Assembly: GCA_004376295.1 (NCBI GenBank)
Contig: SOJZ01000031.1
Span: 76,624 to 140,623 of the forward strand
Length of the DNA: 64,000 nucleotides
Direction of reading: 5' to 3'
DNA from: Candidatus Bathyarchaeota archaeon
GTDB taxonomy: Archaea; Thermoproteota; Bathyarchaeia; Bathyarchaeales; Bathyarchaeaceae
Part shown: positions 52,023-52,198 of the stretch, piece by piece
How the letters are laid out: each line of letters starts with the position of its first letter
Position numbering within the stretch: the stretch's first letter is position 1
The notes under the pieces: generated by a model
Database searches by the model: none
Seen by the model: only the letters and a program-made list of their open reading frames with translations
Told to the model about the DNA's origin: nothing
Made by a program: the position numbers and the translations under genes

Positions 52023-52037
52023 TATAAAAATATTTAA
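52023..52037 (+). promoter_or_regulatory. Box A promoter before the initiator tRNA
   Basis: TATAAAAATATTTAA, a strong archaeal TATA box. Transcription should start near 52050-52060, upstream of both candidate 5' exons. Confidence 0.6.
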
Positions 52038-52078
52038 GATACTCGTGTGTCACTGTTGAGGGTGCGGGGCAAAACCGT

Positions 52079-52198
52079 AGCGAGAGGCACGTTCAGACAG
52101 ACAAACAGGTATAGCCTCCTATACGGGTGGGGTAGCCAGGTGAACCCGCTGGGCTCATAACCCAGAGATCGGTTGTTCAAATCAACCCCCCGCTACCA
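52079..52198 (+). tRNA. Initiator tRNA-Met (CAT), 5' acceptor strand displaced
   Basis: The body from 52125 is a clear archaeal initiator: D stem GGGT/ACCC, anticodon arm CTGGG-CTCATAA-CCCAG with three G-C pairs next to the loop, T arm GGTTG-TTCAAAT-CAACC, acceptor 3' strand CCCCGCT, discriminator A, encoded CCA. The 5' partner of CCCCGCT should be AGCGGGG, but the bases just before TGGGGT are ATACGGG. AGCG is present at 52079-52082; joining it to GGG at 52125 restores the perfect stem and implies a 42-base intron. A second possibility is GCGGGG at 52064-52069 as the first exon (six of seven pairs). Confidence 0.8.
52083..52124 (+). other. Candidate intron in the initiator tRNA acceptor stem
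   Basis: 42 bases between AGCG and GGG. It contains GAGGC/GCCTC and, alternatively, a GTATAG-CCTC-CTATAC hairpin. No standard bulge-helix-bulge could be drawn with these boundaries, so the exact splice sites are uncertain. Confidence 0.4.

Follow-up and report, generated by a model that had tools for sequence, protein, structure and literature searches.

The locus raises the question of how a tRNA acquires its acceptor stem when the 5′ strand of that stem is not contiguous in the gene. The window (the whole 64-kb stretch of DNA analyzed; all coordinates refer to its plus strand) contains one tRNA, the body of which is of the archaeal initiator type with the anticodon CAU (iMet), and which was called at 52122-52198 by both ARAGORN and Rfam. 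Read contiguously, the sequence does not allow the acceptor stem to close, and the Rfam match is therefore limited to model positions 5-66. The 3′ acceptor strand CCCCGCU (CCCCGCT in DNA; 52188-52194) is directly followed by A73 and CCA (52195-52198). Its 5′ counterpart lies in two parts, AGCG at 52079-52082 and GGGUGGGG, which starts with GGG, from 52125, separated by exactly 42 nt. The original prediction had placed a break of this length after AGCG, which was exact. With A1 (52079, in exon 1) facing U72 (52194), the gene shows, in addition to its CAU anticodon, the features of an archaeal initiator. ARAGORN places the 5′ end of this tRNA wrongly (at 52122), because the program cannot see the intron. 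From the spacing typical of archaeal promoters, a putative TATA-like element preceding the tRNA transcript was assigned to 52023-52036. The genome (1.89 Mb, 99.8% complete) contained one initiator match in all; no second, ordinary initiator tRNA, the finding that had been named as speaking against an interrupted gene, was detected in it. We consider it quite probable that this single-copy iMet of Bathyarchaeota carries a 42-nt bulge-helix-bulge (BHB) intron after position 4, and that a duplicate acceptor strand located in the leader acts as a stand-in, holding the 3′ strand until splicing.

A BHB could be fitted around both break points, with an outer helix (h) of 3 bp, a central helix (H) of 4 bp, an inner helix (h′) of 5 bp, and two 3-nt bulges; the 4-bp central helix and 3-nt bulges on opposite strands by which a BHB was recognized are, thus, present in the window gene. 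Read from 5′ to 3′ (slashes mark the cuts), it comprises ACC of h in the leader (52074-52076), GUAG of H, which includes tRNA positions 1-2 (52077-52080), the bulge CG/A with the 5′ splice site (52081-52083), GAGGC of h′ (52084-52088), its complement GCCUC (52114-52118), CUAU of H (52119-52122), the bulge AC/G with the 3′ splice site (52123-52125), and GGU of h (52126-52128), the latter already inside exon 2. The motif draws on the leader bases ACCGU and on bases of the real acceptor strand. Both cuts, each after the second base of its bulge, fall exactly at AGCG/intron/GGGU, which delimits exon 1 (AGCG, tRNA positions 1-4, 52079-52082, equal to the AGCGGGG start of intronless orthologues), a 42-nt intron at position 4/5 (52083-52124), and exon 2 (position 5 to the CCA end, 52125-52198, from ARAGORN, Rfam, and the BHB fit). 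Joining AGCG and GGGU would restore the uninterrupted AGCGGGGU of intronless relatives, leaving the mature tRNA intact. The earlier statement that no regular BHB could be drawn does not hold, as a canonical one fits with cuts at AGCG/GGGU; an intron of atypical structure or a rearranged gene, as had been considered, finds no support, the motif being canonical and the gene order linear. Judged by its sequence, this is an archaeal tRNA intron of the ordinary mechanism, with a canonical BHB, at the extreme position 4/5. Two paralogues of the splicing endonuclease are encoded in the genome, one with a catalytic-type His (DHAPY) and one without His at the catalytic position (by our own reading of the residues), a pair that would resemble the heteromeric enzymes accepting noncanonical introns.

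Intron, BHB, and their conservation among orthologues were established computationally. Genes of the same arrangement occur in the GTDB collection, in records labeled Candidatus Bathyarchaeota and in one labeled "uncultured archaeon". In the 14 iMet orthologues analyzed, intron length ranged between 17 and 42 nt, and the central helix had its full 4 bp in 11 and 3 bp in three, its first pair being G-C, G.U, or A-U. The inner helix was replaced by GACCU/AGGUC in one genome, and one orthologue (L046) had only a relaxed BHB, without an inner helix in this register. Across the 12 distinct iMet sequences, 97% of the BHB cells were paired and nine were compensatory; none of 500 shuffles equaled the covariation score, and controls with slid registers were at most 54% paired. 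Orthologues devoid of the intron and starting with AGCGGGG were present in the same family. The proposed intron after position 4 was supported by a perfect BHB, by compensatory changes, by intronless AGCGGGG orthologues, and by the lack of a second initiator in the genome. As had been recommended, the locus was also compared with its relatives: related genomes have kept both AGCG and the second motif, GCGGGG, arranged as in the window, a conservation that, at the level of sequence, is not compatible with their placement being due to chance. By eye, the initiator tRNA gene L044 (genome G014) appeared to contain four introns (at 4/5, in the anticodon loop, in the variable region, and in the T loop), as did L077 on contig LIHK01000023.1 of Bathyarchaeota BA2; three introns per tRNA gene have been quoted (PMC8450103), so that L044 is apparently one above.

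GCGGGG (52064-52069) is situated in the leader and is complementary to CCCCGC of the 3′ strand. As GGCGGGG it was found ∼10 nt upstream of A1 in every initiator gene with the 4/5 intron (UGCGGGG in the window), that is, in all 16 such loci, but not in intronless orthologues. The preceding GGU (52061-52063) could, according to the fold, pair with A73-C74-C75 and lengthen the stand-in stem; the iMet copy often reaches GGUGGCGGGG, which would allow this pairing. The original prediction had offered GCGGGG as an alternative exon. Its presence was confirmed and its conservation established; its role as an exon was not, as it is a separate leader element predicted to pair with the 3′ strand.

The combination of intron and leader copy was not limited to iMet. 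In the same genome, two genes for tRNA-Gln and one for tRNA-Ser were shortened by the tRNA scan like iMet; each has a BHB close to its 5′ end and a copy of its own acceptor strand (AGCCCGG for Gln, GCCGGGA for Ser) in its leader. The central helix is CGGU/GCCG for the Gln intron at 10/11 and CGGG/CCCG for the Ser intron at 8/9, and in iMet, Gln, and Ser genes alike, the real acceptor strand contributes bases to the BHB; the BHB of Gln is relaxed, with almost no outer helix. When the Gln 10/11 intron was searched for without requiring a copy, 30 genes in 23 of the 257 genomes of the class were found, all of which also matched the pattern requiring it. Another 14 genes with the Gln intron lie outside the class, again with the leader copy directly upstream; three of these copies deviate from the acceptor strand, two of which (GUCCGG and GCCUGG) pair by wobble, while that of L229 (AUCCGG) is weak. 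Archaeal amoA was present in 10 of the 13 out-of-class genomes. In L224-L236 and L241 (outside the class, mostly from amoA archaea), the Gln copy is only 1-3 nt away from the real strand. The Ser intron was accompanied by a leader copy in five of five cases, in one via wobble.

In total, 62 intron loci with a stand-in were collected (16 iMet, five Ser, and 41 Gln, one of them weak). Leader pairing over seven of seven positions was observed for 53 of the 62 intron loci versus none of 68 intronless orthologues (distinct leaders), and over six of seven for nine of 62 versus 10 of 68; the intron loci being related, these counts are not independent events. A 6-mer copy was absent from all 75 leaders of intronless orthologues, compared with 47 positives (Fisher, 6e-35). 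The association spans three isotypes, 16 genera of the class, and further classes. Of the 32 other tRNAs in the genome of the window, one had a chance 6-mer at −67, and two had a seven-of-seven window only if G.U pairs were counted. A second tRNA-His copy (G000:C10:40976-41035, L062) has no 5′ acceptor strand whatsoever; as an intact tRNA-His exists (G000:C23:89445-89517), it is probably a truncated copy. Computationally, intron and stand-in co-occur strictly in the sequences of three tRNA isotypes, the one weak Gln copy notwithstanding. The leaders of two intronless Gln genes, L091 (genome G009) and L101 (genome G007), contain what appear to be decayed copies (taACCCAGaa and AGCCTGaaag), which suggests that the intron was lost first and that the stand-in decayed thereafter.

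What the stand-in could be good for may be pictured as follows. As long as the BHB engages the real 5′ strand, GCGGGG of the leader would pair with the 3′ acceptor strand and so preserve the fold of the upper cloverleaf half. The 3′ strand would then be unable to capture the real 5′ strand, which would be left free for the BHB. The splicing endonuclease would then cut the BHB and the exons would be ligated to AGCGGGGU. Because the leader bases ACCGU and bases of the acceptor strand form the BHB, splicing of iMet should precede removal of the 5′ end; only thereafter would the real strand displace the stand-in and RNase P remove the leader together with it. Processing order, pairing in vivo, and strand exchange are what we infer here. 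Most likely, the stand-in serves to occupy the 3′ strand and thereby to give the real strand access to the BHB.

Folding predictions agreed with this notion to different degrees. Pairing between leader copy and 3′ strand had a probability of 0.9-1.0 in every precursor folded. When the stand-in was replaced in silico, the average pairing of the central BHB helix dropped in every Gln precursor folded, from 0.10-1.00 to 0.00-0.31 (single examples, from 0.94 to 0.04 and from 1.00 to 0.00); the BHB of Ser was somewhat lowered, and most of those of iMet hardly changed. The BHB came out as the favored fold of Ser precursors, of most Gln precursors, and of some iMet precursors. Folding the leader, which had been proposed as a check, predicted pairing of the copy with the 3′ strand in the window gene but not the BHB, which ViennaRNA placed 4.9 kcal/mol above the minimum (containing CCGUA/UACGG instead). 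In most precursors spliced in silico, the stand-in stayed paired by secondary-structure energy alone; exchange would therefore have to be driven by tertiary folding, by RNase P, or by a helicase. Simple folding models thus support the mechanism for Gln and, less so, for the initiator tRNA.

Other readings of the locus differ in how much of this they retain. That GCGGGG represents the genuine 5′ acceptor strand, and everything up to UGGGG of the D arm an intron, is very improbable, despite the fact that GGCGGGG followed by UGGGGUAGCC likewise gives a near-regular tRNA in most orthologues: no BHB was found at those boundaries, the first base opposite U72 would be G1 (U1 in the window) instead of A1, and intronless orthologues begin with A. 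The Gln leader copy, moreover, lacks UGG for positions 8-10, which leaves only the proximal copy as exon there, and by analogy also in iMet. For lack of a fitting BHB and because of this analogy, GCGGGG was rejected as an iMet exon. Even less credible is a split, permuted, or pseudogene tRNA, which the noncontiguous acceptor strand might evoke; the exon parts are in order on one strand, the gene encodes the only initiator found in the genome, and it is conserved across genera. A split tRNA was rejected as all parts lie in order within 52064-52198 on the same strand, and a permuted one as the 3′ half is not upstream of the 5′ half.

Two further explanations accept the intron and concern the leader copy only. 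The copy might be a functionless by-product of intron origin through partial tandem duplication. Its near identity to the acceptor strand, and the small effect of its replacement on the iMet splicing structure in simple folding, would fit, yet its pairing is kept, wobble included, while spacers and flanks diverge, intronless orthologues do not have it (two with apparent decayed remnants), and the two copies are both on the 5′ side of the intron rather than flanking it as in a target-site duplication, which was rejected on this ground. A mere by-product is, thus, unlikely. A serious contender, if somewhat short of an even chance, is that the copy acts mainly on end processing, either as a false acceptor stem for trimming by tRNase Z or by holding off RNase P until the intron has been spliced out. 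This explanation shares ground with the stand-in mechanism and is compatible with it, the difference being which step matters. It is in line with the frequent extension of the iMet copy toward A73-C74-C75, with the slowing of bacterial RNase P by leader pairing with the 3′ RCCA (PMC9433436), and with the normal trimming of ends ahead of intron removal in M. kandleri (PMC3695527); the extension over the 3′ end is, however, inconstant.

Returning to the stand-in as occupant of the 3′ strand, it would, if true, explain how an intron can reside inside the acceptor strand, where splicing motif and cloverleaf are in competition for shared bases. The order of processing would, by this prediction, be fixed and the reverse of that reported for Methanopyrus (PMC3695527). 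The stand-in also provides a rule for annotation, as a duplicated acceptor strand upstream flags tRNAs shortened by scanners. With reasonable though limited confidence, archaeal pre-tRNAs in which an intron falls between positions 4 and 11 may be regarded as a group with an obligatory leader stand-in, which would hold the 3′ strand until splicing and so enforce splicing ahead of 5′-end maturation; the group would comprise iMet, Gln, and Ser and extend beyond a single class of the phylum, amoA archaea included. The tRNA-Gln cases in the latter may allow testing in lineages with cultured members.

In the open-licence literature searched, no description of a second acceptor strand in the leader was found. 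That BHB introns occur at noncanonical positions is well known (PMC4090602, PMC8450103, PMC3218864); positions 20/21, 22/23, 25/26, 29/30, 30/31, 45/46, 53/54, 56/57, 59/60 "etc." have been listed (PMC4090602), and acceptor-stem introns were mentioned in general terms (PMC12397907). The introns described here share with those of Thermoproteales, Thaumarchaeota, and Caldiarchaeum the motif, the cut behind the second base of either bulge, a splicing endonuclease of the heteromeric type, and the occurrence of several introns per gene, but differ in the position 4/5 inside the acceptor strand, the contribution of leader bases to the BHB, and the dedicated leader copy. In split (trans-spliced) archaeal tRNAs, leader sequences also pair to set up the BHB; here, there is one transcript, and the presumed pairing partner of the leader is the 3′ acceptor strand of the mature tRNA, not a second transcript. 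The permuted tRNAs of Thermofilum pendens (iMet and Tyr) likewise include an odd iMet gene shortened by scanners, which in the present case comes about without permutation. Finally, leader bases pair at the 3′ end also in bacterial precursors, but whereas the bacterial interaction with the 3′ RCCA adds a few pairs to the acceptor stem, here a whole strand is replaced.
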